Below, piece after piece: positions 13,312 to 33,118 of a stretch of 43,594 nt of DNA; position 1 is the first letter of the stretch, and each line of letters starts with the position of its first letter. Origin of the DNA: Thermoplasmata archaeon (GTDB taxonomy: Archaea > Thermoplasmatota > Thermoplasmata > Sysuiplasmatales > Sysuiplasmataceae); assembly GCA_021817225.1 (NCBI GenBank), contig JAKAVR010000012.1, forward strand, positions 1 to 43,594, given 5' to 3'. The notes under the pieces were generated by a model. It was given only the letters and a program-made list of their open reading frames with translations, searched no databases and was not told the DNA's origin. The position numbers were made by a program, and so were the translations under genes.

Positions 13312-13315
13312 TTCA

Positions 13316-13332: not shown

Positions 13333-13398
13333 CCATGATAATTTTGGCGAAGCAGGGAAGGGCCGTTTGTTTACCAAACGATAAGCAGAACAAAAATG

Positions 13399-13407: not shown

Positions 13408-13505
13408 GTCAGAAAGAGTATTTACCGGAAACGAGAAAACGATGTGCGGTTCCTGGAACGCGTGGCCGGGCCGCATGAACTGGCCCCGTTTTCCGGAGGA
13501 ATTCA

Positions 13506-14423
13506 ATGACTTCTGAAACGCCTATATGGCAGGTAATCGAGGAAACAGCGTCCAAGCTCAAGAAGAAACATGAGGAAATGGACGCCAGAAGCGCGGATCT
13601 CGACAAAAGGGATCACGAGCTAGCATCCAGGCAGTCGATCCTCGACGAGAAAGAAAGAAACATGAACACCAAGGAGACGAGCCTCAACGAGCTTCAGTCT
13701 GTCCTGACCGAGAGGGAGAAAAAGATAAGCGAGAAGGAATCTGACATTCATTCTGCCGAGACAGCACTCAACAACAAGATCGCCCAGGCGCAGTCCAAGG
13801 AGATAGAACTCAACAACAAGGATAAACTGCTGAACTTCAGGGAGCAGAATCTCGAATCGAAGGCCGAAGAGCTGAACAAGCTCGAGACAGAGATAAAAGA
13901 TCAGCAGAAGAACCTCTCTGACAAGGAAAGCGAACTCCTGAGGCAGGAGCAGGAGCTGAGGCAGGTCATCGATCAGGTCGTCGGACGGAGGCAGGCTGTG
14001 GTTGCGCTCGAGGACACGCTGCGCAAGCAGCTGAGCATGATGAAGGCAGCTGATCCGACTGTCCAGAAGGCGCCACCCGCAAAGCAGCAGCAGTATGACC
14101 AGACTGTGGAGCATGACGAGCCTGCCCAGCATGATGCTGGACAGAGGCAGCCGGCAGAGGATGAGATGTTCTGCAGCAACTGCAATGCGATCATAAGCAA
14201 GGATGCGGTCATATGCTATTCCTGCGGATCAAAGGTCGGCGAAAGCGCTTCCCATGGGGAGCTTGCAGAGGATGAGATGTACTGCAGCAACTGCAATGCG
14301 ATCATAAGCAAGGATGCAGTCATATGCTATTCATGCGGCCAGAAGGTCAGCCAGGAAGGCTCCTCGCAAGAAGGGGCGGGGGCGGAAATGGCAAGGAAGG
14401 TAATAAAGAAGAAGATTGCCTGA
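13506..14423 (+). CDS. Coiled-coil protein with two C-terminal zinc ribbons
   Basis: A 305-residue, probably cytosolic protein with no signal peptide or membrane helix. Residues about 15-180 are one long, highly charged coiled coil made of loosely repeating units (LxxREqxLxxKexEL patterns such as LDKRDHELASRQSIL and KESDIHSAETALNN). A Gln/Pro/His-rich linker follows. Then come two almost identical zinc ribbons: C223-x2-C226-x10-C237-x2-C240 and C260-x2-C263-x10-C274-x2-C277, each CSNCNAIISKDAVICYSCG. The tail is basic (ARKVIKKKIA). I do not recognise the family. The ribbons resemble those at the cytosolic end of the giant surface protein encoded next, which suggests the two proteins work together or bind a common partner (inference). 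Confidence 0.8.
   Translation: MTSETPIWQVIEETASKLKKKHEEMDARSADLDKRDHELASRQSILDEKERNMNTKETSLNELQSVLTEREKKISEKESDIHSAETALNNKIAQAQSKEIELNNKDKLLNFREQNLESKAEELNKLETEIKDQQKNLSDKESELLRQEQELRQVIDQVVGRRQAVVALEDTLRKQLSMMKAADPTVQKAPPAKQQQYDQTVEHDEPAQHDAGQRQPAEDEMFCSNCNAIISKDAVICYSCGSKVGESASHGELAEDEMYCSNCNAIISKDAVICYSCGQKVSQEGSSQEGAGAEMARKVIKKKIA
14154..14227 (+). repeat. Tandem intragenic repeat, copy 1 (zinc ribbon)
   Basis: A 74-base unit, repeated at 14265-14338 with only three base differences, two of them synonymous and one changing Phe to Tyr. The period is 111 bases (37 codons), so the reading frame is kept. Confidence 0.9.
14265..14338 (+). repeat. Tandem intragenic repeat, copy 2 (zinc ribbon)
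   Basis: Second copy of the unit at 14154-14227. The near identity at DNA level, including wobble positions, points to a recent duplication or ongoing gene conversion. Confidence 0.9.
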
Positions 14424-14547
14424 TACGGGCAGTGTGATTTCCGGGCCTCAAACCAATTACATTCTTCATTCCAACTCTGCAAATTATCGCAGATATATTT
14501 TTTGAAACCGTGGTGTCGCAAACTACCTTGATAATCAGGGAAAAGCC

Positions 14548-14556
14548 TTTTTATAT
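14548..14556 (+). promoter_or_regulatory. TATA box of the giant surface-protein gene
   Basis: TTTTTATAT would start transcription near 14580, about 30 bases before the ATG at 14611. AAAGGT at 14599-14604 is a plausible ribosome-binding site. Confidence 0.5.
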
Positions 14557-14610
14557 CGTAGGATAACTCAAAATTTTCGCTTATTCACAGACCTCTCAAA
14601 AGGTAGAATC

Positions 14611-17600
14611 ATGAAGAAAACAAGTGAAAATAGGGGACGGCTTGCAGGTCTCTTGATAGTGCTTCTCTTTGTTGCAACGGCGCTCGCCGGTGCAGTAAAT
14701 GCCGGAGTCCAGCAAGTGCACTCACCGTCTGCCGCGCCAGCCGCAACCACGATAAGCGGTGACATCACCGTTGGGACAGGTTACAGCCTGACGACCTGGA
14801 CGCTCAGTGGCGGAAGCCAGATTCTCGAGGGCAACCTGACAGTTGCGTCCGGGGGTGTCGTGATCCTCTCGAACGAGAGCCTTGTTTTCGACGAATTTTC
14901 GGCTGTCAATTCACTGGCCGGATATGAATCCGCTCCGATATACCACATAACGGTGCAGGATGGCGGAAAGCTTGTCATGTACCACTCGACAATAACGACC
15001 AACATCTACAGGCTGAATGCAATTCCAGTGCTTGGCATAATTGTCCAGGACAATGGAACCTTCAATGTGTTTGATGGCTCTTCACTCGTCTTCCCGGGAC
15101 AGCTTGTTGTATCCAGCGCCAGCATGAATATAATGGACTCATCCGTCAGCGGTTTCCCTGCCTCCTCGTTCAGTTCAAACTACATCAATGAGACTGTCTT
15201 CCCCGTTGGCATATTCGACAACCCGCCTGTTGTCTCGATGTTTGGTGCAAATGTGCTTGTCGAGAGATCAAGCATAGCCATTTACCAGAACAACACCACC
15301 GGCACACAGGCAAACCCGGCAAATGTATTTCATGAGACTTACCCGTTTGCCGCAGACTCTGGAAGCAAGAACAATGTCCTGTACAGGCTTGAAGGCACTC
15401 CCACAACCGTGAACACGGCCGCCCCTCTTTCAGACAGCACGAAATTCCAGAACATTGCAAATCTGTCGGCCTACGACGGCGAAAACTATGTGATACAGGC
15501 TAACCAGGTCATGGCTGTTACCGGATTCAACACTGCAGGTGTCAGCTCTCCGCTCATATCTGCGAGCCTTCACATTTCATACCTGACGCAGGGAACAGCC
15601 GGTGCAGTGCTGCACTGGACCTATGGCAATGATTCGGTCCCTGCAGTCAATATCACCCTGCCCGCATCTTCATCGAATGCGAATGTCTCTGGAGCGCTTC
15701 CTGCCGGCCTGACGGTGAATGACCTTTCACGGGGCCTGGCGTGGCTTAACGCAACAGCGACCACAGGAACCATCCTGGTGAACAAGCTCTGGGTAGAATT
15801 CACATTCACCTCTGCTGCGTACAAGAACATGACTGTCGGTGGTTCATCCAGTTTCACCGCAATAGACAGCTTCATAGGTGCCAACTTCAACCCGTCTCCA
15901 GCTCATCACACTGCAGTGGTAATGACGGACACCGGCCATGCATACTTCTACAATGTTCACATTGACCTGAGTTCAGCTGCCAAAAGCACAGGCATGTACT
16001 CATCTGCTCTCTTCGGAGAGTTCTCCACAATGACTGCGAAACCGCTCGAATTCGGTCCGAAGAACACTGCGACCGCACAGAGCCTTTCGCCTGTGGATTC
16101 AAACGGCGCAACCTATTATGCCATACCTGCCAGCGGTGTGTTCCAGACGTACGGGATGAATGTTACAACTGACGCAAACATGAACACCAGGCTGGCATCT
16201 GCGATATTCTCAATTTCCAGCGATACGACCTCCGGTGCAGTCGTTTATGTCGGCGAAATCGGGCAGTCTGGCTTGATTAACACCGGTATATCACTTTCAA
16301 ATGGAATCGGCTCCATTTACACCGTAAATCTCTACAATCTGGGCTTCAACTCGCTTGCTGACATAAGCAAGCTTGTCGTGTACATTCCAAATGGAGCGAG
16401 CATTACAGACGTCAAGAATGTGAACGTCCAGGTCCAGCTGCTTCCGCAGCTTTATCTCTACAGGTTCGCCAATGTAACGGTCTACAGCAGTCAGCACCTG
16501 CCCGTCTCGGGAAGCTCTGTCGCTCTTTACTACACCGGTTCAACACCAAACAACCTGACGACCGGTTCACTCGCCGGCTACTTTGTTGGTCCGGGCAACA
16601 CATACCAGACAGTTCCGCCTGCTTCGGTGCTTTCCTACCTCGGCAAGTCGCCCTCCAATTACAATGTTACCAACCAGTTCGGCAACGCGCTCATACCTCT
16701 TCTCAGCGATGTGATAGATGCTTCCACTTACCCTGACTCGATGTTCACGGGCAACTATTCTGCGGTCGTCAGCTACAACGGAAGCTCATTTGGAAACTCA
16801 ATATCATTCACTCCATACCCGATAATCACCGGACAGTCGCTTGTTCTCAGTGTGAACATCACAATCGGCATCACGCTCCCGCTCCCACTGATACAGGTGG
16901 GAAGGCCATACGTTGTGCCATCATTCCTGTATGTCAACCAGTCAGGGACAGTCATATTCAACGTGACGGACAGCGGCCAGACAGGCATCAGCTCGTTGCC
17001 TATCAACGTGACCGACGGGGCCAACGGGAAGTTTGTCTCAGACCACCAGACAAACATATCTGTCGGACCCAGGTCCACTGTCACAGTCAGCATAAGCTGG
17101 CATTTCACAGCCCCGGGCAACAATTCAATATCAGTCTTTGCAAACCAGTTCAGGACAATCCCCGAATCAAGCTACGCAGGTGACACAAACTCGACAATAT
17201 TCTACGTTGAGCCAAACCTGCCCGAGCTTGTCATTCTCTCCTCCGGCATAACATTCAATCCATCACCCGCCTACAGCGGCAAATCAGTGGCAATTACTGC
17301 CGCTGTCCAGAACTTCCTGGGAAGGGCGGGAGCAGTAAATGTCACTGTTGGATTCTATTACGGCAACCCATTGACGGGCGGCAGCCTGATAGGCAAGAGC
17401 AGGGTCAACGTCTCGGCCGCAGGCTCGAACACAACAACAATCTCGTGGACGCCAAATACAATTGGACAGGTTCCGATTTACGTATACATTGACCCGTTCC
17501 ACCTTGTGCAGCAGTACAGCACCGCGGGCAACATCAATTCAAGCGTGCTGACAGTCTACCTGTCAATCGGCGGGCAGGATCTGGTTGTTAATAACTCCAA

Positions 17601-20181
17601 CTCGAATCCGATTTCGCCGTTCACAATACCCGCACAGCTCAACCTCTCTTCGAATGTCATTGTAACGCAGAGCGGTTACCTCGCAGTGGTCAATGGCGGA
17701 CTGAATTTCATTGAGACCTACGGCGGGCAGTATTCCTTCCTTGTCAACCAGACAGGCAAGCTGCTGATAGAGAATTCAAACATCACATCCACACAGCTGC
17801 TCAACCTGTATGTATACGGCAGCTCGAGACTCATAATAGTTAACTCGGTGATCGGTGCAAATGTCAACATAATACTTGGCGGAGGCTCCGTCGCCTGGAT
17901 AAACTCGAGCAAGATTGAGGGCACAGTGTCCACTGCCGCGTTCTCCTCCTCCTCGCTTAACACATACAACTCATCATACTCAAACCAGCTGACCGTCGGT
18001 TACAACGAGATAGCCAGACTGTACAACGTGGCGGTTCCGTATGTCGCCCAGCAGTCAAACGCAGTCATTTACATCTACAGGTGGCTGTCTGTGACGGTCT
18101 ACGGCCCGTCGGGAACCACAATATCGGGAGCCAATGTCACCCTGTATACATTCTCGAACCTGACTAATCCTCACGGCAGCAAGTATGCAATGGTCGTAAC
18201 CAATTCATCAGGCGTTGCCCTGTTTGCCGGCCTTTCCGACACGATGATATCAGGCAGCGACGTCTACACGGGCAACTACGTTGCCAACACATCCTATTAT
18301 GACGCCGGAACTTGGTACGCCCCGCAGCTTACAGTTTCCCTTGCTCACTACACGGCCCCCCTGCTGCAGACGAACAGCTACATAAACGCCGAACTCAACA
18401 TCAAGCTGCCAGACCTTGTTCTCACTTCAGGAGACATTGTTTTCTCGACCAACCCGGTTGTCGAGGCATCACATATCACAGTGGATGCACTCGTCTACAA
18501 CCTCGGTTACGGCTCGGTACACAACAACTTCACAGTGACATTCTACCTGCCAGGCTCATCGCCTGTGAACGTAACCACGAGCCTGCTTGCTCCGCTTACA
18601 GTCAACAGCGCGGTCCCAGTGGCCGCAACATGGAATGTGCCAATGTCGTACGGCAACATGACTGTCAGCGCCGCAGTGAACCTTAACAGGAACGTAACCG
18701 AAATCAGCTACGGCAACAACTACGCATCAACCTCGGTTGATGTTCTGAGTCTCCCCGATCTTTCACCCGTGCGCATGAACGCAACAGGCAATTTCCAGGA
18801 ATTCAGCAACATCACATTCAATGTCGTTGTAGGCAACTCGGGACAGACTCCGGCCTCAAACGTGCCTGTCCAGATACTTGACGGCAACTCAAGCCAGAAC
18901 ACGACTCACCCGATCGCCAACGGCACAATGCCGTACATTGGTGCAAACGCCAACGCGGCGATAAGCATAATCTGGACTGTCCCGCAGCTCCCTGCCGGCG
19001 TCACCTCAGAGCATCTGTACTTCGCCGCTGTTGTCAATCCAAACCAGACTGTCAAGGAGTCGAACTACACTCAGAGCACCATTGCACAGGCTATACAGCT
19101 CAACATAACACGCGCCCAGGTCACTGCATCGGTCTACCTGTCCCAGACTTCACTGACAGCCGGGACATACATCTCCGTCACTGTCAGCGTGGTTTCAAAG
19201 GTGACTGGAAAGCCAATGGCCGGTTACCCGCTTACAGTCACGCTTTACAACCTCAGGGGAATACCGCAGACCAACGTCAACTACCAGGTCACCACCGGTG
19301 CGAACGGCGTGGCCACCGAAAGGATATCAATACCCTCGTCGGAGTCTCAGGGCTCGTACCACTTCGTCGTCTTCTCTGAGGGACAGTTCGTCAGCCAATC
19401 CCAGTCGTTCAATGTTCTTTCGAACGGAACTGGAACAGGCATACCGCTGCTCTACTGGCTGCTCATACTCGTTGTCGCAGTAGGCGCTTTCGCAGGCTTC
19501 TCAGCTTACCTCTACAGGTACGGGCTTGCGAGAGTTGTCGAGTGTGGAAACTGTGGTGCCTTCATACCGGAGACATCAAAGAAGTGCCCCTACTGCAGCG
19601 TCGAATTCGAGCCTGGCACTGCAAAGTGCAGCAACTGCAGTTCCTGGATTCCTGCCTCCTCCAAGGAGTGCCCGATTTGTGGCGTCAAGTTCGCCGATGA
19701 GGGCGAGAGCGACAGGGAGGAGGATACCACTGCGGAACTGAGGAAGCAGTATTCCGTCTTCGCGGACAAGTTCAAGGCACAGGCGAAGGTGGAACTCGGC
19801 AACAAGTACACGGACAAGGCATTCCTGTCATGGTGGAAGAGACAGTCAACATACACCACATTTGAAGACTGGCTTTCGAAGCAGCAGGAAGCAAGGAAGG
19901 CAAGAATGATCACATGCCCTGTCTGCGGCGAGCCAAACACTGCCGCATCAAAGGAATGCATGAAGTGCGGTTCTCAGCTGTCACAGGCGGAAGCACAGAA
20001 GAAGGATGACCAACCGCCCGGGCCCCCGACTCAGCCGGAAGGCAAGGCGCCGCCGCAGGAGCCCAGGAAGATAGTCGTTCCGAAGCGTGTAATCAGGAAG
20101 ATAGAAGACAAGCCCCAGCAGCAGCCGCCCGCTGACAGCTCCGGAAACAAAACAGGCGAGGATGGAAACAACGCTCAGTAG
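14611..20181 (+). CDS. Giant membrane-anchored surface protein with CARDB domains and cytosolic zinc ribbons
   Basis: A 1856-residue protein. A basic N-terminus and hydrophobic segment (about residues 10-32, ending ALAGAVNA) form a signal peptide. The ectodomain is Ser/Thr/Asn-rich with many N-glycosylation sequons. It includes beta-helix-like stretches (about 50-130 and 990-1110, with SGYLAVVNGG and TGKLLIENSNI) and at least four CARDB/Ig-like adhesion repeats (about 760-870, 870-980, 1264-1375 and 1380-1500, the last three starting LPELV, LPDLV, LPDLS). One transmembrane helix (about 1612-1636) precedes a cytosolic tail with three zinc ribbons: C1645/C1648/C1659/C1662, C1673/C1676/C1687/C1690 and C1769/C1772/C1783/C1786. 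Between ribbons two and three is a charged helical stretch with a Trp pair (AFLSWWKRQS). The end is Pro/Gln-rich and basic. It probably acts as an S-layer-like or adhesion component that signals or docks inside the cell (inference). Confidence 0.82.
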   Translation: MKKTSENRGRLAGLLIVLLFVATALAGAVNAGVQQVHSPSAAPAATTISGDITVGTGYSLTTWTLSGGSQILEGNLTVASGGVVILSNESLVFDEFSAVNSLAGYESAPIYHITVQDGGKLVMYHSTITTNIYRLNAIPVLGIIVQDNGTFNVFDGSSLVFPGQLVVSSASMNIMDSSVSGFPASSFSSNYINETVFPVGIFDNPPVVSMFGANVLVERSSIAIYQNNTTGTQANPANVFHETYPFAADSGSKNNVLYRLEGTPTTVNTAAPLSDSTKFQNIANLSAYDGENYVIQANQVMAVTGFNTAGVSSPLISASLHISYLTQGTAGAVLHWTYGNDSVPAVNITLPASSSNANVSGALPAGLTVNDLSRGLAWLNATATTGTILVNKLWVEFTFTSAAYKNMTVGGSSSFTAIDSFIGANFNPSPAHHTAVVMTDTGHAYFYNVHIDLSSAAKSTGMYSSALFGEFSTMTAKPLEFGPKNTATAQSLSPVDSNGATYYAIPASGVFQTYGMNVTTDANMNTRLASAIFSISSDTTSGAVVYVGEIGQSGLINTGISLSNGIGSIYTVNLYNLGFNSLADISKLVVYIPNGASITDVKNVNVQVQLLPQLYLYRFANVTVYSSQHLPVSGSSVALYYTGSTPNNLTTGSLAGYFVGPGNTYQTVPPASVLSYLGKSPSNYNVTNQFGNALIPLLSDVIDASTYPDSMFTGNYSAVVSYNGSSFGNSISFTPYPIITGQSLVLSVNITIGITLPLPLIQVGRPYVVPSFLYVNQSGTVIFNVTDSGQTGISSLPINVTDGANGKFVSDHQTNISVGPRSTVTVSISWHFTAPGNNSISVFANQFRTIPESSYAGDTNSTIFYVEPNLPELVILSSGITFNPSPAYSGKSVAITAAVQNFLGRAGAVNVTVGFYYGNPLTGGSLIGKSRVNVSAAGSNTTTISWTPNTIGQVPIYVYIDPFHLVQQYSTAGNINSSVLTVYLSIGGQDLVVNNSNSNPISPFTIPAQLNLSSNVIVTQSGYLAVVNGGLNFIETYGGQYSFLVNQTGKLLIENSNITSTQLLNLYVYGSSRLIIVNSVIGANVNIILGGGSVAWINSSKIEGTVSTAAFSSSSLNTYNSSYSNQLTVGYNEIARLYNVAVPYVAQQSNAVIYIYRWLSVTVYGPSGTTISGANVTLYTFSNLTNPHGSKYAMVVTNSSGVALFAGLSDTMISGSDVYTGNYVANTSYYDAGTWYAPQLTVSLAHYTAPLLQTNSYINAELNIKLPDLVLTSGDIVFSTNPVVEASHITVDALVYNLGYGSVHNNFTVTFYLPGSSPVNVTTSLLAPLTVNSAVPVAATWNVPMSYGNMTVSAAVNLNRNVTEISYGNNYASTSVDVLSLPDLSPVRMNATGNFQEFSNITFNVVVGNSGQTPASNVPVQILDGNSSQNTTHPIANGTMPYIGANANAAISIIWTVPQLPAGVTSEHLYFAAVVNPNQTVKESNYTQSTIAQAIQLNITRAQVTASVYLSQTSLTAGTYISVTVSVVSKVTGKPMAGYPLTVTLYNLRGIPQTNVNYQVTTGANGVATERISIPSSESQGSYHFVVFSEGQFVSQSQSFNVLSNGTGTGIPLLYWLLILVVAVGAFAGFSAYLYRYGLARVVECGNCGAFIPETSKKCPYCSVEFEPGTAKCSNCSSWIPASSKECPICGVKFADEGESDREEDTTAELRKQYSVFADKFKAQAKVELGNKYTDKAFLSWWKRQSTYTTFEDWLSKQQEARKARMITCPVCGEPNTAASKECMKCGSQLSQAEAQKKDDQPPGPPTQPEGKAPPQEPRKIVVPKRVIRKIEDKPQQQPPADSSGNKTGEDGNNAQ

Positions 20182-21032: not shown

Positions 21033-21040
21033 TTAAATAA
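21033..21040 (+). promoter_or_regulatory. TATA box of the pilus/secretion operon
   Basis: TTAAATAA lies 35-45 bases before the possible starts of the pilin gene (GTG 21070, ATG 21079). No other promoter-like site is obvious before the following four overlapping genes. Confidence 0.5.
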
Positions 21041-21078
21041 GGAAAAACAAGCTCATTCCGGTTGGACGTGTGCTCCGG

Positions 21079-22032
21079 ATGCAATTGTCCCAGAGGAAGC
21101 AATCAATATTGAAGCCTTCGAAAATCAGAAAGGATGACGAAGGTGTGGCTTCTGTAGTGGGAACTATACTGGCTCTGATAGTCTTTCTTTCAATCCTCGG
21201 CCTATTTACCAACCATTATGTGCCGGCCATGATGGCCGCAAACGAGCATCAGCATGACAACAATGTCGTATCACAGTTCTCTGAACTCAAGCAGAGCGTG
21301 GACAACCTTATGATGTACTCATCCTCCTCCCAGATAACAACTCTTTCAGCCTACAGCCCTGTAACTTTGGGCTCATCAGGTGTTCCAATGTTCGCCGTCG
21401 GAACACAGGGCCAGATGAACGTGATCCCGCAGGACGGAAACACAATTCCGTACTTCACCGTCTCATTCAACTACCAGCTCACAAATCTGGGTGTGAATGC
21501 TGTTTACCACCTGACATCCTCTTCGGGCGGCGGTGTGGTTGTCAACATACCCAACAGATACTATGTCCCTCAGACTGTGCTCTATGAAAACGATGCTGTG
21601 ATACTCGGCCAGAGCAACGGCCAGGTCATGGTTGCAGCACCCGGATTCAGTGTAAGCACTCTCGGCGGCATACATCTCAATCTCCTCGAGCTTTCCGTGG
21701 CTACCCCTACAACTACAAACCTGAGCTATGCGGGGACAAACACATTATCACTCAGTTCCCACCTGCTCAGTTTCTCAAAGAACACCTATACACTTGTCCA
21801 GTCGGGGCAGTCGACACCCAACGTGAACATAGCAATCGGCACCCCCTACCCGCTCGCATGGCTGGACTTCTTCAACAGCACTTTCTCTCAGGCGGGCGTG
21901 CTATACGGCACTGGCTACACTGCCACGGTGCAGTCAGCAGGCAACCAGCTCTACGTGCTGGATATCAGCATAAACGGTGTCAGCTCCATGACATTGACTA
22001 ACGCTGCACTGGCAGTATCACCGGAGGAATGA
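21079..22032 (+). CDS. Archaeal type IV pilin-like protein
   Basis: A 317-residue exported protein with a basic N-terminus, then KDDEGVASVVGTILALIVFL. This is an archaeal pilin processing site (cleavage expected after the Gly by a prepilin peptidase, not encoded here) followed by a single hydrophobic assembly helix (about residues 25-45). The remainder (FTNHYVPAMMAANE, SQFSELKQSVDNLMMY) matches large Thermoplasmata pilin-like proteins whose Ser/Thr/Asn-rich C-terminal domain is outside the cell. The gene heads the operon. Its stop overlaps the start of the first ATPase gene (ATGA), so subunit and motor are co-expressed. A GTG at 21070 is an alternative start. Confidence 0.8.
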   Translation: MQLSQRKQSILKPSKIRKDDEGVASVVGTILALIVFLSILGLFTNHYVPAMMAANEHQHDNNVVSQFSELKQSVDNLMMYSSSSQITTLSAYSPVTLGSSGVPMFAVGTQGQMNVIPQDGNTIPYFTVSFNYQLTNLGVNAVYHLTSSSGGGVVVNIPNRYYVPQTVLYENDAVILGQSNGQVMVAAPGFSVSTLGGIHLNLLELSVATPTTTNLSYAGTNTLSLSSHLLSFSKNTYTLVQSGQSTPNVNIAIGTPYPLAWLDFFNSTFSQAGVLYGTGYTATVQSAGNQLYVLDISINGVSSMTLTNAALAVSPEE

Positions 22033-23759
22033 AAATGGCAACAAGCGCCAATGATGACCAGCAGGAGATAAACAGGAAGGCACTGCCCAAGCTCTTATCT
22101 GAAGGATACAAGCGATTCCTTTCAAAGAGGGGAAACAAGAAGGTCAAGATAATGATGCCCAGGGACGAAGTCGAGCGCAAGATCGACTGGGCCGAGGGAA
22201 AAGGGTCTGTCTATACCGTGATACCGCCTCTTCTGTCCGCATCAATGGAAGTGCTTGAAATCTACCCTGTTGTTGAACCTTACTCCTACATCCGGGCAAC
22301 GTACAACAACGAGACAAGCGAATACCTGCTTGAGGCAATTGAACCGCAGCTCACGGAAGCTGAAGCGAAGCTTCTTCATCTGCTCAAGGACACGCTGCAG
22401 AGGACGCTTGATTACGAATACAAGCATCTGAACAAAATGGACAGGAAAGAGTATCTCAAGAGAAGCATCGCAAGCTTCCTGAGCACCAGAGGGCTTTCGG
22501 CGTCACACGTCACAAAGGACAAGCTCGCATACTACATCGTGAGGGATTTCATAGGCTACGGGCCGGTTGACATATTCATACGGGACCCGAACAGCGAAGA
22601 TGTCTCCTGCGACGGCGTCGGCGTCCCGATATTCATTTTCCACAGGAAGTACGAAAGCGTTCGGACGAATATCACCTTTGCGAACGAGGAGATTCTTGAT
22701 TCCTTTGTCGTTTACCTTGGCCAGAAGTGCGGAAAGCAGATCAGTGTTTCAACACCAATACTTGACGGCACAACTCCCGAGGGGCACAGGCTTCAGGCAA
22801 CCTATGCAAGGGAAGTCACCAGCAGGGGGTCGTCGTTCACAGTCAGGCTGTTCAAGGAAAGACCGTTCACCCCCGTCGACATGATCAACTACGGCACTGC
22901 ATCTGAGGAGATGATGGCCTACTTCTGGATGAGCGTCGAAGCAGGAGAGTCTGCAATGATCATCGGCGGAACGGGAAATGGAAAGACATCCACGCTGAAT
23001 GCGATCTCACTGTTCATTCCTCCAAGCGCCAAGATAGTCACAATGGAGGATACAAGGGAAATAAACCTGCCTCACGAAAACTGGATCCCGGGCACAACAA
23101 GGTCCGGCGTCGGCGAAAAGGGTATCGACGGAAAGACAGCAGGTGAGATTGACATGTTCGACCTTGTAAGGGCTGCGTTGAGACAAAGGCCCAACTACAT
23201 CATTGTAGGTGAGGTCAGGGGTAAGGAGGCCTACACGATGTTCCAGGCTATGGCCACTGGCCACACAACCTACTCCACCATGCACGCAGACAGCGTCAAG
23301 CTCATGATCAACAGGCTTGAGAATCCTCCAATCAACATACCGCGTATACTGCTTACCGCCCTGAGGACTGTCGTCGTCCAGCAGCAGGTGAGGATCGGCA
23401 AGCAGCATGCAAGGCGTATAAAGAACGTGGTCGAACTCATCGGTTTCGAGCCCGGGACAAATGAGATAATCACAAATGTTGTCTTCGAATGGGACCAGGT
23501 CAAGGACATATTCGTGTTCAAGGGGCACAGCGCACTGTTCGACAAGCTAAGGGACCTGAAGAACTGGACCTATGAGGAATTCAATGAGGAATTCAACAGG
23601 CGGATTGACGTCGTCAGGTACATGGCGAAGAAAAATATGACAAACCACTTTGATATCTGGTCTCTGATAAACAAGTATTACAGGGAACAGGAAGAAACGA
23701 TGAAGATGGTCCGCGAATACATAGGTGATGCGGACAAGGAGGATGTTATAGTTGTCTGA
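22029..23759 (+). CDS. Type II/IV secretion ATPase 1 (ArlI/TadA-like)
   Basis: A 576-residue cytosolic hexameric motor ATPase for pilus assembly or secretion. The N-terminal domain (about residues 1-200) is followed by YYIVRDFIGYGPVDIFIRDPNSEDVSCDGV, as in archaeal family members. The C-terminal ATPase core has Walker A IIGGTGNGKTST (about 311-322), the Asp box TMEDTREINLPHENW, Walker B PNYIIVGEVRGKEA and the His box MATGHTTYSTMHAD. All nucleotide-site motifs are intact. The start has a good ribosome-binding site (GGAGG, 22022-22026) inside the end of the pilin gene. A second, divergent copy lies at the end of the same operon. Confidence 0.93.
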   Translation: MKMATSANDDQQEINRKALPKLLSEGYKRFLSKRGNKKVKIMMPRDEVERKIDWAEGKGSVYTVIPPLLSASMEVLEIYPVVEPYSYIRATYNNETSEYLLEAIEPQLTEAEAKLLHLLKDTLQRTLDYEYKHLNKMDRKEYLKRSIASFLSTRGLSASHVTKDKLAYYIVRDFIGYGPVDIFIRDPNSEDVSCDGVGVPIFIFHRKYESVRTNITFANEEILDSFVVYLGQKCGKQISVSTPILDGTTPEGHRLQATYAREVTSRGSSFTVRLFKERPFTPVDMINYGTASEEMMAYFWMSVEAGESAMIIGGTGNGKTSTLNAISLFIPPSAKIVTMEDTREINLPHENWIPGTTRSGVGEKGIDGKTAGEIDMFDLVRAALRQRPNYIIVGEVRGKEAYTMFQAMATGHTTYSTMHADSVKLMINRLENPPINIPRILLTALRTVVVQQQVRIGKQHARRIKNVVELIGFEPGTNEIITNVVFEWDQVKDIFVFKGHSALFDKLRDLKNWTYEEFNEEFNRRIDVVRYMAKKNMTNHFDIWSLINKYYREQEETMKMVREYIGDADKEDVIVV

Positions 23760-24819
23760 AGGAGAGTCAAACCTGTTCTCGAAGTTCGAGGACATGGACA
23801 GGTCATTTCTCGGCACCAAGACGGTCAAGTCAAAGAGGATGGTCGAGGGGCCTCACCCGATCAAGCTGCCTGCCGGCACTGTGCCTGACTACGTCAAGCT
23901 CTCACCCTACCAGCAGTTCTGCTGGAGGACAATGCACAGGCTGGTGGAGGCAAGGTTCAAGGTCAACCAGGAGCTGGAGGACAACCTCATAAAGGCTCAT
24001 ATGAAAATCAGGCCCGAGGAGTATACAGCAGTCACATGGATGACCAGCCTGATCGCCGGCATTGCAGGCCTTGTAATCGGAGTGGTCTTCGGAGGAGTCA
24101 TACTGACGCTGCTCCATTCGGTCATTGCGTTGAGACTGGTCGTCATTTTCCTCACCACATTCATCCCTCCCGGAGCCATATACCTCGTGCTGAAGGCAAT
24201 ACCCTCGTCCAAGGCATCCTCCCGCGCAAGGGACATAAACAAGCACATAGGCAGCGCAATGAGCTTCATCTCCGCCCTTGCCTCGGCAGATGTGAATGTT
24301 GATGTGATATTCAGCGAACTTGCAAAGCAGCCCATTTACGGGGAAGTTCAGAAGGAGGCAGAGTGGATAACAAGGGACACAACGCTGCTGGGAGTCGACA
24401 TACTCACCGCGATAAGAAACGCGGCTGCAAGGACTCCTTCGCCAAAGTTCCAGGATTTCCTCCAGGGTGTTGTTACGACAGCGACATCCGGCGGGCACCT
24501 CAAGCCATACTTCCTTCTCAAGGCGGAGCAATACGAGAAGGAGGAAAAACTGAACACAAAGCAGGATATGGAGACGCTTGGGCTGTTCGCGGAGACCTTT
24601 GTGACGGTCGTGGTTGCGTTTCCGCTTTTCCTCGTAGTCATAATGGCAATTATGTCTGTTGTGAGCGGCGGTGGCAGCCAGGCTACCTCAGTTGTGTTCG
24701 GCGTAACGATGCCGTTTAACGTTCTCCTGCTCTATGTCGTAGTGCTTCTGATGATTCCCGCATCCCAGGGAGGATTCATATTCTTTGTCTGGAACATGGG
24801 CAAGGAGGCTTCACAATGA
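23752..24819 (+). CDS. Type II secretion F / TadC-like membrane protein 1
   Basis: A 355-residue polytopic platform protein. A cytosolic N-terminus of about 85 residues precedes two helices (about 95-150). A cytosolic T2SSF helical domain follows (IGSAMSFISALASADVNVDVIFSELAKQPIYGEVQKEAEWI, then FQDFLQGVVTTATSGGHLKPYF), with two C-terminal helices (about 280-350). It belongs to the ArlJ/TadC class, which sits in the membrane above the ATPase. It starts at a TTG (23752) within the ATPase gene, preceded by AAGGAGG, the strongest ribosome-binding site in the operon, which supports that rare start codon. Confidence 0.88.
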   Translation: MSEGESNLFSKFEDMDRSFLGTKTVKSKRMVEGPHPIKLPAGTVPDYVKLSPYQQFCWRTMHRLVEARFKVNQELEDNLIKAHMKIRPEEYTAVTWMTSLIAGIAGLVIGVVFGGVILTLLHSVIALRLVVIFLTTFIPPGAIYLVLKAIPSSKASSRARDINKHIGSAMSFISALASADVNVDVIFSELAKQPIYGEVQKEAEWITRDTTLLGVDILTAIRNAAARTPSPKFQDFLQGVVTTATSGGHLKPYFLLKAEQYEKEEKLNTKQDMETLGLFAETFVTVVVAFPLFLVVIMAIMSVVSGGGSQATSVVFGVTMPFNVLLLYVVVLLMIPASQGGFIFFVWNMGKEASQ

Positions 24820-25736
24820 ACGTGAATGCCACACAGATCGTGGATGTCAAAAGGCTCTCTTCGGCTAAGAAGAACATCGAGAAGCAGGTCACGGCTATCT
24901 CGGTCATGGCGATGGCTCTGCTTCTGCTTGTCGGAATAGTGGGGCTTCTCAACAACACGCAGTACTTCGGCATGTCCATACTGGACTGGATCGTCCTTGC
25001 GATGGCTGCATTCATGGGACCCTACGGATCGTATTCAAGCACGCAGGTCAGGAAAATCAAGCAGATAGAGGACAGAGTCCCTGATTTCCTGCGTGATGTG
25101 GCGGAAGCAGGCAGGTTCGGAATGACTCTCGCGGAGTCTGTCATCGTCGCTTCGGCAGGCAAATACGGCAAGCTCACGCCCGAGATAAGGCGGATGGCAT
25201 CCCAGATTGACTGGGGAGTCCCTGCAACCGAGGCGTTCAGGCTTTTCGCCGAGAGGATGAATTCACCCCTAGTCACCAGGATTTCAAATATTATCATAAA
25301 GGCAAGCGATGCAGGCGGGGCGGTCTCGGATGTGCTCAACATGGTCGCCCATGATGCAAGGGAGCGCATACTGAACAGGAAGGAGAGGGGAATAGCCATG
25401 AGCACATACATGGTCGTGATATACATCGCGTTCGCCGTCTTCCTCGCAACCATATTCATACTCGAGGCAACGTTCATACCACAGATCGAGAAGGCAGGCA
25501 ACCAGCTCCAGAGTTCGACGGGAGTCCTCGCCGGTGGCGGGGCGGTGACGACAATCAATGTGCTTGCCATAGGTCCGGTTGTGACTGCTTTCTACTTGGC
25601 TGTCATAGTGCACGCCGCGGGCGACGGCATCATGGCCGGCGTCATTCAGGACGGCAGAATTACGAACGGGATGAGACACAGCGCACTCATGCTCGTGATT
25701 GGCTTCATATTCATGCGCATACTCCTTGGTGTTTAA
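24816..25736 (+). CDS. Type II secretion F / TadC-like membrane protein 2
   Basis: A 306-residue second platform protein with the same T2SSF fold. Two N-terminal helices (about residues 25-70) are followed by the cytosolic domain (IEDRVPDFLRDVAEAGRFGMTLAESV and ASQIDWGVPATEAFRLFAERM, then IIKASDAGGAVSDVL) and three C-terminal helices (about 195-305). It is more typical of the family than the first copy, having the full PDFLRD...G.TL and GG...VL signatures. Its ATG overlaps the stop of TadC-like 1 (ATGA). ArlJ can be regarded as a fusion of two such units, so the two proteins probably form one heteromeric platform (inference). Confidence 0.9.
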   Translation: MNVNATQIVDVKRLSSAKKNIEKQVTAISVMAMALLLLVGIVGLLNNTQYFGMSILDWIVLAMAAFMGPYGSYSSTQVRKIKQIEDRVPDFLRDVAEAGRFGMTLAESVIVASAGKYGKLTPEIRRMASQIDWGVPATEAFRLFAERMNSPLVTRISNIIIKASDAGGAVSDVLNMVAHDARERILNRKERGIAMSTYMVVIYIAFAVFLATIFILEATFIPQIEKAGNQLQSSTGVLAGGGAVTTINVLAIGPVVTAFYLAVIVHAAGDGIMAGVIQDGRITNGMRHSALMLVIGFIFMRILLGV

Positions 25737-25738
25737 GA

Positions 25739-27478
25739 ATGGCGACTGAAGCCGAAAGACCTGATGGAACGGAGAAGACGAAAGAACGAAAAAAGAGGCT
25801 GAGCCTGAAATCGAAATACCTCCGGTTCATGAACTCGGTCGGAAGCAAGCCGTTCCGTGTCATGATCCCAGAGCAGGAGTTCAGGCTCGGATCAAGCGTG
25901 AAAGTCACTCCAATACCGCTCATAAACGAGAAAGGGCAGGAGGAGGTGGAGCTCACACCGCTCAATGAGCCGTACTCATATGCCAGGATAAAGTACGACA
26001 CGCTGCTGAACGAGTACCTCTACGAGCTCATCGAACCGCCGCTTTCAATGGACGAGCGGAATGTCCTGAGGACGCTCAAGGAGGCGCTGATAGCATCCCT
26101 CAACATGTCGGAGGACGAAGACAAGGAGGCGAAGGAGAAGAGCCTGAAGAAGGCCACAAGGGATGTCATGAACTCACTCGACGTATCGCTCAACCCGGTT
26201 TCAATGGAGAGGGTCTTCTACTACCTGAAAAGGGATCTTGTCGGCCTGGGCATAATCGAGGGCGTGATGCTTGACAGCAATGTCGAGGACGTATCCTGCG
26301 ACGGTGTCAACATACCCATTTTCATATTCCACAGGAAGTACGGCTCAATTCGCTCAAACCTCAAGTTCGAAAGGGAGGAGGAGCTGGACGCCTTCGTTGT
26401 ATGGCTTGCCCAGCGCTCCGGGAAACAGATTTCAGTCGCGAACCCGATGCTTGATGCCACTCTCCCCGGCGGCTCAAGGCTGAATGCAACGCTTGGGAAG
26501 CATGTCACAAAGAAGGGCTCGTCGTTCACAATCAGGCGGTTCAAGGACGATCCTTTCACGCCGATAGATCTCGTCCGCTTCAAGACAATGAGCGTCGACA
26601 TGATGGCCTACCTGTGGCTCTGCATCGAATACGGCAGTTCGATGATGGTGTGCGGCGGCACCGCAAGCGGAAAGACAACGACTCTGAACGCCGTGCTTCT
26701 TTTCATTCCTCCCCAGATGAAGATCATAAGCATCGAGGACACAAGGGAACTGAACCTTCCGCACGAAAACTGGATAGCATCTGTCACGCGCGAGGGGTTT
26801 GGAGGCAGGTCGGCAAACATGGCGGGCGCCGTGGACATGTTCGACCTGCTCACCGCTGCGATGAGGCAGAGGCCGCAGTACCTGATGGTCGGTGAAGTCA
26901 GGGGCAAGGAGGCTTATGTCGTCTTCCAGGCAATGGCCACGGGCACAATAGCCTACTCAACGTTCCATGCAGACGACCTTGGCGCAATGATACACAGGAT
27001 GGAAAGCGAGCCGATCAAGCTGCCCCGTTCGCTGATGACCGCATTGAACATAATGCTCCTGCAGGGACAGGTTAAGGTCGGAACAAAGATGACGAGGCGT
27101 GTCAAATCACTCACCGAGATAGTCGGCCTCGACCCGGAGACGAACGAAATCATATACAATTCAGTGTTTACATGGAACCCGGCAGACGACCGTTTCCACT
27201 ACTCCGGCCACAGCTACATTTTCGAAAAGATAAGGCTGAGCAAGGGATGGTCCCCCAGGGAGATGGAGGCTGAGATGAGACGCAGGGTCCTTCTGCTCGA
27301 ATACATGCGCAGGAAGAACGTAAACAACTACATGTCAGTGGCCGCACTCATCTCGGCCTACTACAGGGATGCCGAGAAGACTGTGGCGAAGGTGGAGAGG
27401 GAAATGAGCGACCTTGGCGCGTCTGCTCAGCAGAAAGACCAGCAGGCGGTTGCGCCGGCCGCTGGCGCGAGCCCGTGA
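25739..27478 (+). CDS. Type II/IV secretion ATPase 2 (ArlI/TadA-like)
   Basis: A 579-residue paralogue of the first ATPase, similar along its whole length. It has YYLKRDLVGLGIIEGVMLDSNVEDVSCDGV before the core. The core has Walker A VCGGTASGKTTT (about residues 304-315), the Asp box SIEDTRELNLPHENW and Walker B PQYLMVGEVRGKEA. The His-box segment reads MATGTIAYSTFHAD: the His of the usual TGH is Thr, while the later His is kept. The C-terminal tail is Ala/Gln-rich. It begins two bases after TadC-like 2 and is the last gene of the operon. Whether it powers assembly, disassembly or another substrate than ATPase 1 is not shown by sequence. Confidence 0.93.
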   Translation: MATEAERPDGTEKTKERKKRLSLKSKYLRFMNSVGSKPFRVMIPEQEFRLGSSVKVTPIPLINEKGQEEVELTPLNEPYSYARIKYDTLLNEYLYELIEPPLSMDERNVLRTLKEALIASLNMSEDEDKEAKEKSLKKATRDVMNSLDVSLNPVSMERVFYYLKRDLVGLGIIEGVMLDSNVEDVSCDGVNIPIFIFHRKYGSIRSNLKFEREEELDAFVVWLAQRSGKQISVANPMLDATLPGGSRLNATLGKHVTKKGSSFTIRRFKDDPFTPIDLVRFKTMSVDMMAYLWLCIEYGSSMMVCGGTASGKTTTLNAVLLFIPPQMKIISIEDTRELNLPHENWIASVTREGFGGRSANMAGAVDMFDLLTAAMRQRPQYLMVGEVRGKEAYVVFQAMATGTIAYSTFHADDLGAMIHRMESEPIKLPRSLMTALNIMLLQGQVKVGTKMTRRVKSLTEIVGLDPETNEIIYNSVFTWNPADDRFHYSGHSYIFEKIRLSKGWSPREMEAEMRRRVLLLEYMRRKNVNNYMSVAALISAYYRDAEKTVAKVEREMSDLGASAQQKDQQAVAPAAGASP

Positions 27479-27593
27479 ATCCGTAACTGCCCGTTGAGTC
27501 TTCGCATCATTTCCCGATTCCACCTCATTGCCGCCTTCGAAACTTGTACAATCATACTTAAAAGCGATTCACAGGGCTTTCCTCCTGATCAAA

Positions 27594-29804
27594 ATGATCA
27601 GGCAGTCCTCCCCGGCCAGAACAGTGCTCCTGGTATTGATGCTGATTGTTGCATCCTTTGTAGGCTTGCAGAGTGCGTTAACGGTTGTATCGGCTACCCC
27701 CTATAGCGGCAGTCCCCCGGGGCCGACAAACTTGACCGTGTATTACCACAACCTGACAACACCGGTCACAATTGGAGGGCAGTATCACCTGAAGATTGCA
27801 AACACATTGAATGATACAAATAAGGCTTACTCTGCAACGGGGGGCAACATATCTGCAGTTCACTATCTTACAGTGGAGTTTACAGTCTATCCCCAGCTCT
27901 CGGGTCCCCTTGTGCTTAACGGGACGATTTACAGCTGGATGTACTTCTCGCAGAGCGGTTCGGCTCCCACCTCCGGGCACATCACATTTGGTGTGTCCGA
28001 AGTCTCACCCGCCGGAACGCTGACATCGCTCGGAGCGGGTCCGGCAGTTACCACCAGCAGCACCGCACCAGGCTCTTCTGCAACATCCATAATGCTTACG
28101 GGCCCTACGCTGAACCAGGTGGTTCCGGCGAATGACAGCCTCATGTTCAATATATCTGTGAATGGGGGCACGAGCCAGGTGTATAACGCATACTGGGGCA
28201 ATGTCAACGGAACATATTTCTATTCCAGGGCATCGGTCTCAGCATCTTCGTACCTCGAAGTGAGCAACATGTCCGCGGTTGACAGCAAAGGGCAGCCGGC
28301 CTACTCGCTTTCCCAGTCTGCATCGGACAAGAACATAACTGTTTACGTCAACCTGACAGATCCTTTCGGGCAGTACGATTTTGCATCATGGCCCGTCGAC
28401 TATGCAATCCAGAACGCGACGGGGACCGTTATCGCGTCAGGTGTCATGACACCCGTTGGAGCATACAGTGCTTTTGCACTCATGCGCCAGTATGAATTCA
28501 ACTTCAATTACAGCACCTCTGCCTCTGGTTCCCTTACAGTAACTGCAAACGGCACCGACAACACAATGCACAACTACCTCACCTCAAACGGCGTGACCTA
28601 TGGCAGGAATGCCTACGGCACCCTGCAACTGTATGTCGGAACGCCGCCGATTTCGGTAAGCTTCACGGTAACGGACGCGGCCGGGAATGCCGTATCTGGT
28701 GCGCAGGTCAGGATCATGCAGCTTTCCTACTTTGTGGGCTACAACACAACCGGCGCCTCCGGTCTGGCCACGATGCTGCTTTCCCAGGGCAACTATTCAG
28801 CGGTTGTCTACTGGCAGTCAGTCAAAGTGGGTTCCTTCCCAGTTTCCGTCAACAGCACAAGCTCGCAGTTCACACTGAAGGCAGGCATCTATTCCACGCT
28901 CCTTGTCTTCGAGGATCAGTCCGGAACGGCACTCTCTTTTGCCCAGGTGCAGCTCGTATCTCCGGCCGGAATAGGCATCCCGCTGATGTCCAGCACTTCC
29001 AACGGTTCGATTTCGCTCAGCGAGGTGGCCAGCGGTGAATACACGGCAACAGTCTTCTGGCATGGCACCATGGTGTTCAACGGCACAATCCCGATAGATG
29101 CAAACGGTGTCCTCGCGGTCAACGTTGCCGCCTACAGGCAGACTTTCGAGGTCGTAACAGCAACCGGAAGCCCAGTGGCAACAGCCAATGTCGTGGTTGT
29201 CAACTCCACTACAGGCATTTACGCCGGCTTCAATACAACGAACGCAAGCGGACTGGCTGCGTCTGTCCTCCCCTACGGTGTTTACAACATACAGGTCTAC
29301 TGGAAAGGCATCATGGTCTACAATGCAGCAGCACAGCGGCTCGGCAACTCCGCTCCCGGAACTATGGTTCTCAAAGCTTCGATTTACGACGTCACTGTAA
29401 TCGCCGTGTCTTCAGGAGGTTCTCCGCTGGCAAATGTGGAGATAAGCCTTTACAGCAACGCAACAGGAACAGTGCTGTCAGGCGTTACCGGCAACAACGG
29501 GCAGGCAACCTTCACGGTCGCAACGGGCAACTATACACTCACATCATTCTTCTCCACGACCTATGATCTCACGCCTGTGGTGCAGAAAATCACCCAGACT
29601 CTCAGTGTCTCAAATTCCACCTCGCAGACCGTGAAGTTTACAAATGTATACCCGCCGCTCACATCCACCAACCTGTTCTACGTTGTCCTTGCTGTGGTTG
29701 TTGCGATCATCGCCGTGGCCGCAGGTGTTGCAATCTATGGATTGAGAAAGGCAGGGTCTTCCGCAAGACATGAAGAGGAGCAGAAGGGGAAGCAGGGGAA
29801 CTGA
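27594..29804 (+). CDS. Membrane-anchored surface protein with Cna-B / carboxypeptidase-regulatory-like repeats
   Basis: A 736-residue exported protein. Residues about 8-33 are a signal peptide (RTVLLVLMLIVASFVGL). The first ~330 residues are a beta-rich domain with many N-glycosylation sequons. From about residue 345 to 680 there are four repeats of the Cna-B/regulatory type, recognisable by VTDAAGNAVSGAQVRI, VFEDQSGTALSFAQVQL, VVTATGSPVATANVVVV and VSSGGSPLANVEISLY, each followed by a TTxxSGxAxxxLxxGxY-like turn. One C-terminal helix (FYVVLAVVVAIIAVAAGVAIYG) and a short charged tail anchor it with the bulk outside. The ATG at 27594 lies about 36 bases after a TTAAAA box; an in-frame TTG at 27528 is unlikely. 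It follows the secretion operon and may be a cargo or pilus-associated adhesin (inference). Confidence 0.8.
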   Translation: MIRQSSPARTVLLVLMLIVASFVGLQSALTVVSATPYSGSPPGPTNLTVYYHNLTTPVTIGGQYHLKIANTLNDTNKAYSATGGNISAVHYLTVEFTVYPQLSGPLVLNGTIYSWMYFSQSGSAPTSGHITFGVSEVSPAGTLTSLGAGPAVTTSSTAPGSSATSIMLTGPTLNQVVPANDSLMFNISVNGGTSQVYNAYWGNVNGTYFYSRASVSASSYLEVSNMSAVDSKGQPAYSLSQSASDKNITVYVNLTDPFGQYDFASWPVDYAIQNATGTVIASGVMTPVGAYSAFALMRQYEFNFNYSTSASGSLTVTANGTDNTMHNYLTSNGVTYGRNAYGTLQLYVGTPPISVSFTVTDAAGNAVSGAQVRIMQLSYFVGYNTTGASGLATMLLSQGNYSAVVYWQSVKVGSFPVSVNSTSSQFTLKAGIYSTLLVFEDQSGTALSFAQVQLVSPAGIGIPLMSSTSNGSISLSEVASGEYTATVFWHGTMVFNGTIPIDANGVLAVNVAAYRQTFEVVTATGSPVATANVVVVNSTTGIYAGFNTTNASGLAASVLPYGVYNIQVYWKGIMVYNAAAQRLGNSAPGTMVLKASIYDVTVIAVSSGGSPLANVEISLYSNATGTVLSGVTGNNGQATFTVATGNYTLTSFFSTTYDLTPVVQKITQTLSVSNSTSQTVKFTNVYPPLTSTNLFYVVLAVVVAIIAVAAGVAIYGLRKAGSSARHEEEQKGKQGN

Positions 29805-31411: not shown

Positions 31412-33118
31412 TCAGTACCAGTAAATGCCTGTGAATGGTATTGCCTGTCCATATTGTGAAATTAAAGCTCCCGTAGAGCTGTTGGTCAGGGTCCCGAAAA
31501 GCATAATCGAATTGAAGCTCAGTTCGCCAGATGCGGGGTAATCTGTGCCGCTGACTTTGATACTCATGAATGAGTTGGTTCCACTGTTGGTTAACGGTAT
31601 CCCGCCGTTTCCAGCGGTGCCGAACGTAACATTCACCGGCACATTGGCGGGCAGGCTTATGGTCGAGGTCCCAAGTACTCTGTATGTCGTGCTGTTAAGA
31701 ATGAATGCATCACTGAAAGCGAATTTGCCCGGATTCCCTGCCTGATTGAACAGGAAATAGATATCGGATATGTAATTTAAATTTATGGCTATGCTTGAGT
31801 TGTGGTTTTCAAGCACAATGTGGAAGTAAATACCTGGACCACCATCGACGTAACTCGCGGGAATTTCATACCCTGTGTGGTAAATGGAACTTCCCGACTC
31901 ATTCCATGAAAACTGAGAATAAGTCATGCTCGTCGGGCCAAGGTAGGTTGAAGGATAACTGGAATTCAGGTTCGGGTTCAGGGCGCTAATGACAACAATG
32001 GTAATATAGAAGCTAACTGAGTTTCCCTGTATATCGGTCGCATTGACAGCGAATGTCTCGAACCCGTAATTATTCGGATTGACGCGCCCGGGATATGTGA
32101 AAATGCCAGTGTAGGCGCTCGGAACCATGTGTACAGTGCTGCCCTTTGTTATGTTTGTGAGAATCGGTGTTCCGTAGGGTGCCACTGTCACGCTGCCGAA
32201 GCCCGATGCAGGATTGAACTGCGATATGTTGCTGTCAACGACATATGCTGTGATGTTGAAGTACGAATTCGGGGTGGAGGGATTGGGGTTGATGCTTGCT
32301 GTAATTATGTCTGGTCCATTGTTTGCCACGAGAGTCGAGAACGTGTAGTTCGTCTCTTGTCCGTTATGTGAGGTTGCGTTTATCTGTATGGGGTAGTATT
32401 GGCCGCTTACAAGTGTCTTCAAAGTGTAGAAGTAGCCTGTGTATATGCCTCCAGACAGACCAAGGGGGAGGTTTCCAACCGTGCTGTTGAGGTAATAGAC
32501 GGACGCGTTGACATATTTCACATTGCCAAGAACGACCGCTGTGACAGTGAGCTTCTTGCCTGGCGTGACGGGGCTGGGTGAAGCATAGGCTCTCTGTATT
32601 ACAACTGTTGCTATGTTCGACTTGCCCGTGAGAACAGCACTCCAGACAACATAGTTGGAAGCAGTGTTAATTATTGAAATGGCTACCACCGCACCACTCG
32701 TGATGTTAGTCTGGTTGACGCTCCAGACCTGGTTTGTTTCCCATTGCGACTGGGTCCACGGGCCAAGTATACCCGTTGTTCCCACTGAGTTGCCCTCTGG
32801 CAGCTGGTAAACAAAAGTTGTCTGGTTAATCTGGACCACAATCGAGGTTGTCCCGGAATTCAGATTCTGCCCTCCCAGGTGAGTTATGTTCAGAATCTCC
32901 TGGAAAGTCAATCCGTGTGCCACAGGCTGTGTGACGGTTGCCTGGAAATCCGCATATGTCTGTGCGGTGGGTGTCGGAATTGCATTTACGTAGAAGAATA
33001 TGCTCGTGAAGAGAACAACCGTAATGCCAAGTATCAGTATGTCCCCTATGATTTCGGATACACCAGAATCCTTCCTGCCGTGAGCAGTGCTATTTTTGCC
33101 TCTTTTATCATTGATCAT
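31412..33118 (-). CDS. Large pilin-like surface protein with Ig-like domains
   Basis: A 568-residue exported protein beginning with a basic leader and RKDSGVSEIIGDILILGITVV. This is the archaeal pilin N-terminal signature (G followed by VSxIIG), giving expected cleavage after the Gly and a single assembly helix (about residues 20-45). Most pilins are far shorter. Here the helix carries a long Ser/Thr/Asn/Tyr-rich ectodomain with beta-sandwich-like repeats, such as VIQRAYASPSPVTPGKKLTVTAVV and ITASINPNPSTPNSYFNITAYVV, and many sequons. The gene looks more AT-rich than its neighbours, with more ATT/TAT/AAT codons. It is not in an operon. It may be a minor or tip pilin for the secretion system upstream (inference). 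Confidence 0.78.
   Translation of the reverse strand: MINDKRGKNSTAHGRKDSGVSEIIGDILILGITVVLFTSIFFYVNAIPTPTAQTYADFQATVTQPVAHGLTFQEILNITHLGGQNLNSGTTSIVVQINQTTFVYQLPEGNSVGTTGILGPWTQSQWETNQVWSVNQTNITSGAVVAISIINTASNYVVWSAVLTGKSNIATVVIQRAYASPSPVTPGKKLTVTAVVLGNVKYVNASVYYLNSTVGNLPLGLSGGIYTGYFYTLKTLVSGQYYPIQINATSHNGQETNYTFSTLVANNGPDIITASINPNPSTPNSYFNITAYVVDSNISQFNPASGFGSVTVAPYGTPILTNITKGSTVHMVPSAYTGIFTYPGRVNPNNYGFETFAVNATDIQGNSVSFYITIVVISALNPNLNSSYPSTYLGPTSMTYSQFSWNESGSSIYHTGYEIPASYVDGGPGIYFHIVLENHNSSIAINLNYISDIYFLFNQAGNPGKFAFSDAFILNSTTYRVLGTSTISLPANVPVNVTFGTAGNGGIPLTNSGTNSFMSIKVSGTDYPASGELSFNSIMLFGTLTNSSTGALISQYGQAIPFTGIYWY

Follow-up and report, generated by a model that had tools for sequence, protein, structure and literature searches.

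A conserved two-ATPase type IV pilus operon in the Thermoplasmata and a candidate mixed-ring motor

The subject of this report is a five-gene type IV pilus (T4P) operon of a Thermoplasmata archaeon (family Sysuiplasmataceae), found in a stretch of 43,594 nucleotides that corresponds to contig JAKAVR010000012.1 of assembly GCA_021817225.1 and is called the window hereafter, and whose two ATPases may, we propose, work together in one mixed ring. The genes encode, in order, a pilin, an ATPase (E1), two platform proteins (Fa and Fb) and a second ATPase (E2), successive junctions being a 4-base overlap, an 8-base overlap, a 4-base overlap and a 2-base gap (Table 1). An earlier sequence-only reading had described this order, with junctions of 2 to 8 bases, and had seen in it two full-length paralogous ATPases flanking a split platform, both of which agree with the open reading frame coordinates and with matches to the Pfam families T2SSE and T2SSF (cut-offs of ~25 bits; Fa was scanned from a start at 23764 instead of its TTG start at 23752, and the domain match lies well inside). 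E1 and E2 are both full length and share 46% identity over 567 aligned positions. The idea of two platforms, on the other hand, did not survive. On the ArlJ model NF004704 (555 positions), Fa aligns to 5-248 and Fb to 263-543, and because the two genes cover successive parts of this model, they are the halves of a single two-domain ArlJ-type platform. Fission of the platform into two proteins is known for TadB/TadC and Epd pili (PMC6668835).

Table 1. Operon genes and motifs (whole-window coordinates), and degenerate E1 genes of relatives
Feature	Location	Strand	Evidence
Type IV pilin, 320 aa	21070..22032	+	alignment of orthologs, AlphaFold model, weak DUF7289 match
ATPase E1, 576 aa	22029..23759	+	PF00437 117.7 bits, PilB3_C 28.3 bits; E1 clade 100/100
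Platform N-half (Fa), one T2SSF domain, CdiPFa/TadC-like	23752..24819	+	T2SSF 52.3 bits
Platform C-half (Fb), one T2SSF domain, CdiPFb/TadB-like	24816..25736	+	T2SSF 67.0 bits
ATPase E2, 579 aa	25739..27478	+	PF00437 100.7 bits, PilB3_C 40.1 bits; class E2 clade 100/100
E1 EGHR, residues 251-254, beside N2D arginine	22779..22790	+	alignment
E1 Walker A GGTGNGKT, residues 313-320	22965..22988	+	GKT invariant in 51/51 class E1
E1 RQRP ... TGH, residues 385-412	23181..23264	+	mapped via CpaF R347 and PilB T411/H413
E2 TGT, residues 401-403, family-wide TGH His lost	26939..26947	+	alignment
Thermoplasma-type candidate pseudo-ATPase E1	L165:639-1916, L166:1269-2519, L167:5405-6673, L168:3187-4440, L100:1379-2644		related to PF00437; P-loop, Asp-box Glu and Walker B Glu all missing

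A system of this kind was reported in 2025 in Cuniculiplasma divulgatum, where CdiPE1 and CdiPE2 are the two ATPases and the platform is divided between CdiPFa and CdiPFb. Its authors regarded the ATPase pair as unique among the archaeal operons described until then, and found that the cells adhere but do not twitch (PMC12448462). The premise of the sequence-only reading that archaea use one ATPase per system was the published view until that paper. The window shares the CdiP-type traits, since it has two T2SSE ATPases with N-half and C-half platform genes between them, but differs in that its operon opens with a pilin gene, whereas the C. divulgatum pilins lie ~500 kb away. No statement on wider conservation or on active-site complementarity was found in the part of that paper available to us (PMC12448462), and the class-wide conservation of E1-Fa-Fb-E2 that we describe below is new with respect to it.

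The genome holds a single pilus machine of this kind, with one platform pair, which makes two machines with shared parts, one of the options raised earlier, unlikely. PF00437 is found across the genome in the two operon ATPases and in one fragment on contig C68 only (G000:C68:1-3356, locus L093), a piece of a platform-ATPase operon with an ATPase nearly identical to one from a genome of another genus (G004). C68 was considered as a second operon of this organism and rejected, this near-identity pointing to probable contamination of the metagenome-assembled genome. One prepilin peptidase (contig C20) and a second, short pilin are encoded elsewhere in the genome.

Far from occurring only here, the order E1-Fa-Fb-E2 is kept across the class: it was found in all 42 whole two-ATPase loci from 60 relatives, where the pilin is usually upstream (and downstream in one family), and in 20/20 loci fetched from Thermoplasmataceae-like genomes. 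A wider table of 83 pair loci, some of which may be the same species counted twice, has 78 with E1 upstream and E2 downstream, most of them in class Thermoplasmata. Among the relatives' loci are those that we take to be from Thermoplasma acidophilum, T. volcanium, C. divulgatum S5 and Aciduliprofundum boonei. About 110 full-length loci were covered in all. The machine is absent from some lineages (most of family f6, parts of f17), and the platform C-half was found in 186 of 244 genomes from the phylum. Beyond the class, the majority of the loci examined have one ATPase followed by a split platform (27 loci), an arrangement that we take, from these comparisons, as the probable older state. At the divergent end stands a pilin-E1-Fa-Fb-E2 operon (L083:3628-9690, genome G052) that still carries EGHR/TGH in E1 and NGAR/TGQ in E2; a FastTree analysis paired its two ATPases with each other, whereas the motifs suggest that they may be an orthologous E1/E2 pair.

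The two ATPases have long been separate. In a tree of 69 rows (trait columns left out), class E1 and class E2 each form a clade with support of 100/100 and the ArlI archaellum ATPases stand apart at 100/99; because these are separate supported clades, the pair is not a recent duplication – the case that could have undone the earlier interpretation – and neither member is ArlI, the duplication probably dating from an ancestor of the class. Near-invariant positions number 136 in class E1 and 162 in class E2. Locus L169, which we take to be that of C. divulgatum, has the order E1-Fa-Fb-E2 with the same motif pattern, and its E1 falls inside the E1 clade. The E2 proteins of that family sit on long branches outside class E2, and their union with it is not rejected (approximately unbiased test, p-AU 0.26). 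By position and clade E1 would be the ortholog of CdiPE1, and by position E2 that of CdiPE2. Scores against family models stay below the cut-offs for ArlI (NF058587; 393 bits for E1 and 446 for E2 versus 550) and TadA (TIGR03819; 139 and 145 versus 373), and are also low for PilB. None of arlF, arlG and arlH was found among the operon genes or the direct neighbours scanned, a KaiC-family gene (PF06745) ~8 kb upstream not having been compared with ArlH.

What distinguishes E1 from E2 is best understood from motors of known structure. In PilB, one packing unit binds the nucleotide through Walker A and the Asp-box Glu, and its neighbour supplies T411, which H413 flanks; the authors suggest that the His box mediates inter-chain cooperativity (PMC5424180). 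In CpaF, subunit n contributes its N2D and C-terminal domain (CTD) to the active site and subunit n+1 its CTD, with R347 in trans (PMC11300603). Mapped by alignment, R347 of CpaF and T411/H413 of PilB correspond to R385 and T410/H412 of E1. The P-loop GKT and the Glu residues of the Asp box and of Walker B are retained in class E1 as well as class E2. The TGH histidine (H412) is present in E1 of all 78 flanking pairs and in 27/27 single-ATPase relatives, versus 4 of the 77 scored E2, the others having K (40), R (22), T (10) or Q (1) at this position; T410, too, is missing from most C. divulgatum-type E2. Position 253, within EGHR, is H in 51/51 class E1 and S in 50/50 class E2, as it is in most relatives; since it is H also in 3/27 single ATPases, this His does not mark pairs specifically. 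A 'histidine swap', in which the EGHR His of E1 would replace the one lost by E2, was considered and dropped, since the single-ATPase loci L199, L221 and L222 carry both EGHR and TGH.

This asymmetry is complete in five Thermoplasma-type genomes, all of which have an E1 without the P-loop Gly and Thr, the Asp-box Glu (E340), the Walker B Glu (E395), the Arg after it (R397) and the second His (H419), but with R385, Q386, R387 and P388 and with T410, G411 and H412. Conversely, their E2 (5/5) keep GKT, E340, E395, R397 and H419, have Y at 385 and have lost H412. Of the 57 E1-invariant CTD positions, 19 are kept in all five, and the two trans segments account for 9 of their 10 positions (hypergeometric 8e-5), bearing in mind that these segments were chosen from the PilB and CpaF papers but after part of the pattern had been seen. 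Because omega is 0.04-0.09 where measurable (similar to E2 and the platform), this E1 is constrained by purifying selection and not decaying. Decay of one ATPase in relatives, which had been named as a result that would count against a functional pair, is therefore half borne out: E1 is catalytically degenerate in these genomes, yet it is under purifying selection. A pseudo-ATPase of this type is easily missed in annotation because its score can lie below the Pfam cut-off (22.4 bits versus 24.9 for that of L166).

We consider it probable, on these residue patterns, that E1 and E2 form a mixed hexamer with shared active sites on one two-chain platform; of the three options in the sequence-only reading, the hetero-hexamer seems to fit best, given the complementary trans and cis patterns. 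One T4P machine would then assemble pilins on a platform of two chains, Fa and Fb, driven by a ring of E1 and E2 that most simply alternate as (E1E2)3. In this superfamily each nucleotide site has (i) a cis part, from the CTD and N2D of its own subunit (P-loop, Asp-box Glu, Walker B Glu and second His), and (ii) a trans part, from the CTD of the next subunit (LRxRP arginine and TG-H). After duplication in an ancestor of the class, E2 would have kept the cis set and lost the trans histidine, with E1 keeping the trans set, and E2 sites would as a result have come to need E1 at their side. To judge from their residues, ATP hydrolysis still looks within reach of both subunits in the window's organism, whereas in Thermoplasma-type genomes the division would be complete, E2 being catalytic and E1 a trans-activating pseudo-ATPase, such that only an E2 site beside E1 would be whole. 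Any retraction would be the work of that one ring, which is how Aap and Tad pili retract. The gene order, the ancient duplication, the residue patterns and the purifying selection on degenerate E1 are observed; the mixed ring, its 3:3 stoichiometry and the direction of its drive are what we infer from them. For a more ambitious version, an obligate hetero-hexameric motor with interdigitated active sites throughout the class Thermoplasmata and an F1-like catalytic/pseudo-ATPase ring in Thermoplasma, we see the chances as evenly poised. In the alpha/beta rings of F1- and V-type ATPases, catalytic and non-catalytic paralogs share active sites; their likeness to the proposed Thermoplasma-type division of labour would be one of analogy, as they are not homologous to E1/E2 at the family level. 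Descriptions of type IV filament motors usually have them as homohexamers, duplicated motor ATPases sharing one ring being an open suggestion in a primer according to which such duplicates would co-assemble by default until their interfaces diverge (PMC6711533).

Several observations weigh against a mixed ring. The window's own E1 and E2 keep all cis residues and the trans arginine, both look catalytically intact, and homohexamers remain compatible with their sequences; because they differ, among the residues discussed, at the trans histidine only, the strongest evidence for a heteromer comes from relatives. There, E2 of four loci (L041, L042, L229 and L230) retain TGH, an Arg one residue from 385 in four of the five Thermoplasma-type E2 could replace R385, and Thermoplasma-type E1 and E2 are too divergent for good placement in the tree, their orthology resting on gene order and motif pattern. 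Paralogs need not co-assemble, moreover, since PilT and PilU form separate homohexamers in Vibrio (PMC6821130). Finally, in another class of the phylum, two duplications that placed adjacent ATPases upstream of a split platform (L192:7054-10946, genome G200; L196:6683-10458, genome G128) kept TGH in both copies and show no asymmetry, and the independent phylogenetic events that link second copies to His loss, although consistent in direction, are too few for significance (three pairs for, none against and two uninformative; sign test p ~0.25). In favour of a mixed ring, on the other hand, two more sets outside the class also have one TGH and one TGK copy, and form their own clades: L205-L207 (E1-Fa-Fb-E2; 87/82) and L210-L211 (E1-E2-Fa-Fb; 100/98), a single origin of all His-less copies compared being rejected (p-AU 0.017).

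Tandem ATPase genes were also seen in archaellum operons, although archaella in the literature are said to have just one ATPase gene. Two such operons have tandem ArlI genes (L102:4525-7986 in G040:C22, where two ArlI precede one ArlJ-like platform, and L226:1-2972 in G032:C7). The first ArlI has lost the His-box His in both (IGN in L102, TGI in L226), and the second ArlI of L102 keeps TGH.

Among other explanations, the best placed, which we nevertheless find unlikely, is that E1 and E2 are separate homohexamers that take turns at the shared platform, one for extension and the other for retraction, like PilB and PilT. Two ATPases on one platform is indeed the plan of bacterial type IVa pili (T4aP), this possibility was raised by the C. 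divulgatum authors (PMC12448462), separate homohexamers have the PilT/PilU precedent (PMC6821130) and both window paralogs keep every cis catalytic residue. However, E1 and E2 reach 46.0 and 42.8 bits with the PilT model TIGR01420 (cut-off 319 bits), against 393 and 446 bits with the archaeal FlaI model, and neither is a PilT. C. divulgatum, with both ATPases, adheres and does not twitch (PMC12448462), Aap pili of Sulfolobus are able to retract in the absence of any PilT homolog (PMC11178785) and a degenerate Thermoplasma-type E1 cannot be a motor alone. A dedicated second motor of the PilT kind, suggested earlier, loses its footing on two counts: neither paralog is PilT-like and the Thermoplasma-type E1 is without catalytic residues.

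A stacked or regulatory partner, where one ATPase alone would make up the working ring and the second would bind to it as an adaptor ring or cofactor with no shared active sites, comes after it and is doubtful as well. This would account for an E1 that loses catalysis yet stays conserved, and PilU, a PilT-dependent retraction ATPase (PMC6762196), offers a precedent, but it predicts neither that the residues retained by E1 are those reaching the neighbour's site nor that E2 loses precisely those. Neutral duplication, with redundant or condition-specific copies whose residue differences are drift, is very improbable, for although lineage-specific duplications occur in archaeal T4P loci (PMC4858521) and those of L192 and L196 show no asymmetry, both copies and their order persist across the class with their many near-invariant positions, and the same His is lost repeatedly, in one copy only.

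Set beside other known machines, the operon resembles archaeal T4P of Makarova clade 2 (PilB3/PilC3) in its PilB3_C matches, in having the Archaeoglobus GspE-type 2oap as nearest solved structure (the best solved relative of E2, at 443 bits) and in that these have loci with two tadC genes, but differs from them since their loci are described with one ATPase each (PMC4858521). It has in common with Tad/Epd systems a platform made of two single-T2SSF proteins, an N-half and a C-half (PMC6668835), but these have one ATPase (CpaF/TadA). With PilB/PilT/PilU of bacterial T4aP it shares several paralogous ATPases on one platform, but not the PilT and PilB family matches, and PilT and PilU are homohexamers (PMC6821130).

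An ancient pair, further one-sided duplications and a catalytically stripped end state make the question of whether paralogs share a ring testable in cultures of Thermoplasma, Aciduliprofundum and Cuniculiplasma. If true, a mixed ring would give a reason for the second ATPase of the non-twitching C. divulgatum, called enigmatic by its authors (PMC12448462), and an F1-like ring in Thermoplasma would be the first in the type IV filament superfamily found in the literature searched.

As for the pilin, G25, V26, A27, S28 and G31 (GVAS..G, at the start of the hydrophobic helix) are invariant in an alignment of nine orthologs, and its AlphaFold model (mean pLDDT 82) has a 68-residue helix (20-87) followed by beta strands, the C-terminal domain being beta-rich. 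Its DUF7289 match is weak (27.7 bits versus a cut-off of 27), and a Foldseek search of the model against the PDB gave no match at E<=0.001.

Upstream of the operon (12601-20181) lie genes for a KaiC-family ATPase, a coiled-coil double-zinc-ribbon protein and a giant CARDB/zinc-ribbon membrane protein, and the family has three more genomes with this same order (L232, L233 and L234); CARDB proteins adjoin the operon in many other families. On the minus strand, convergent to the operon, lies a 568-aa protein with an archaeal Pilin_N domain (31412-33118), relatives of which occur at further loci within the family. The gene that follows E2 directly on its strand (27528-29804) encodes a protein of 758 aa that looks secreted, with carboxypeptidase-regulatory-like repeats and a membrane segment at its C terminus; it is also present in two loci of the same genus (L047 and L092) and is possibly an adhesin.

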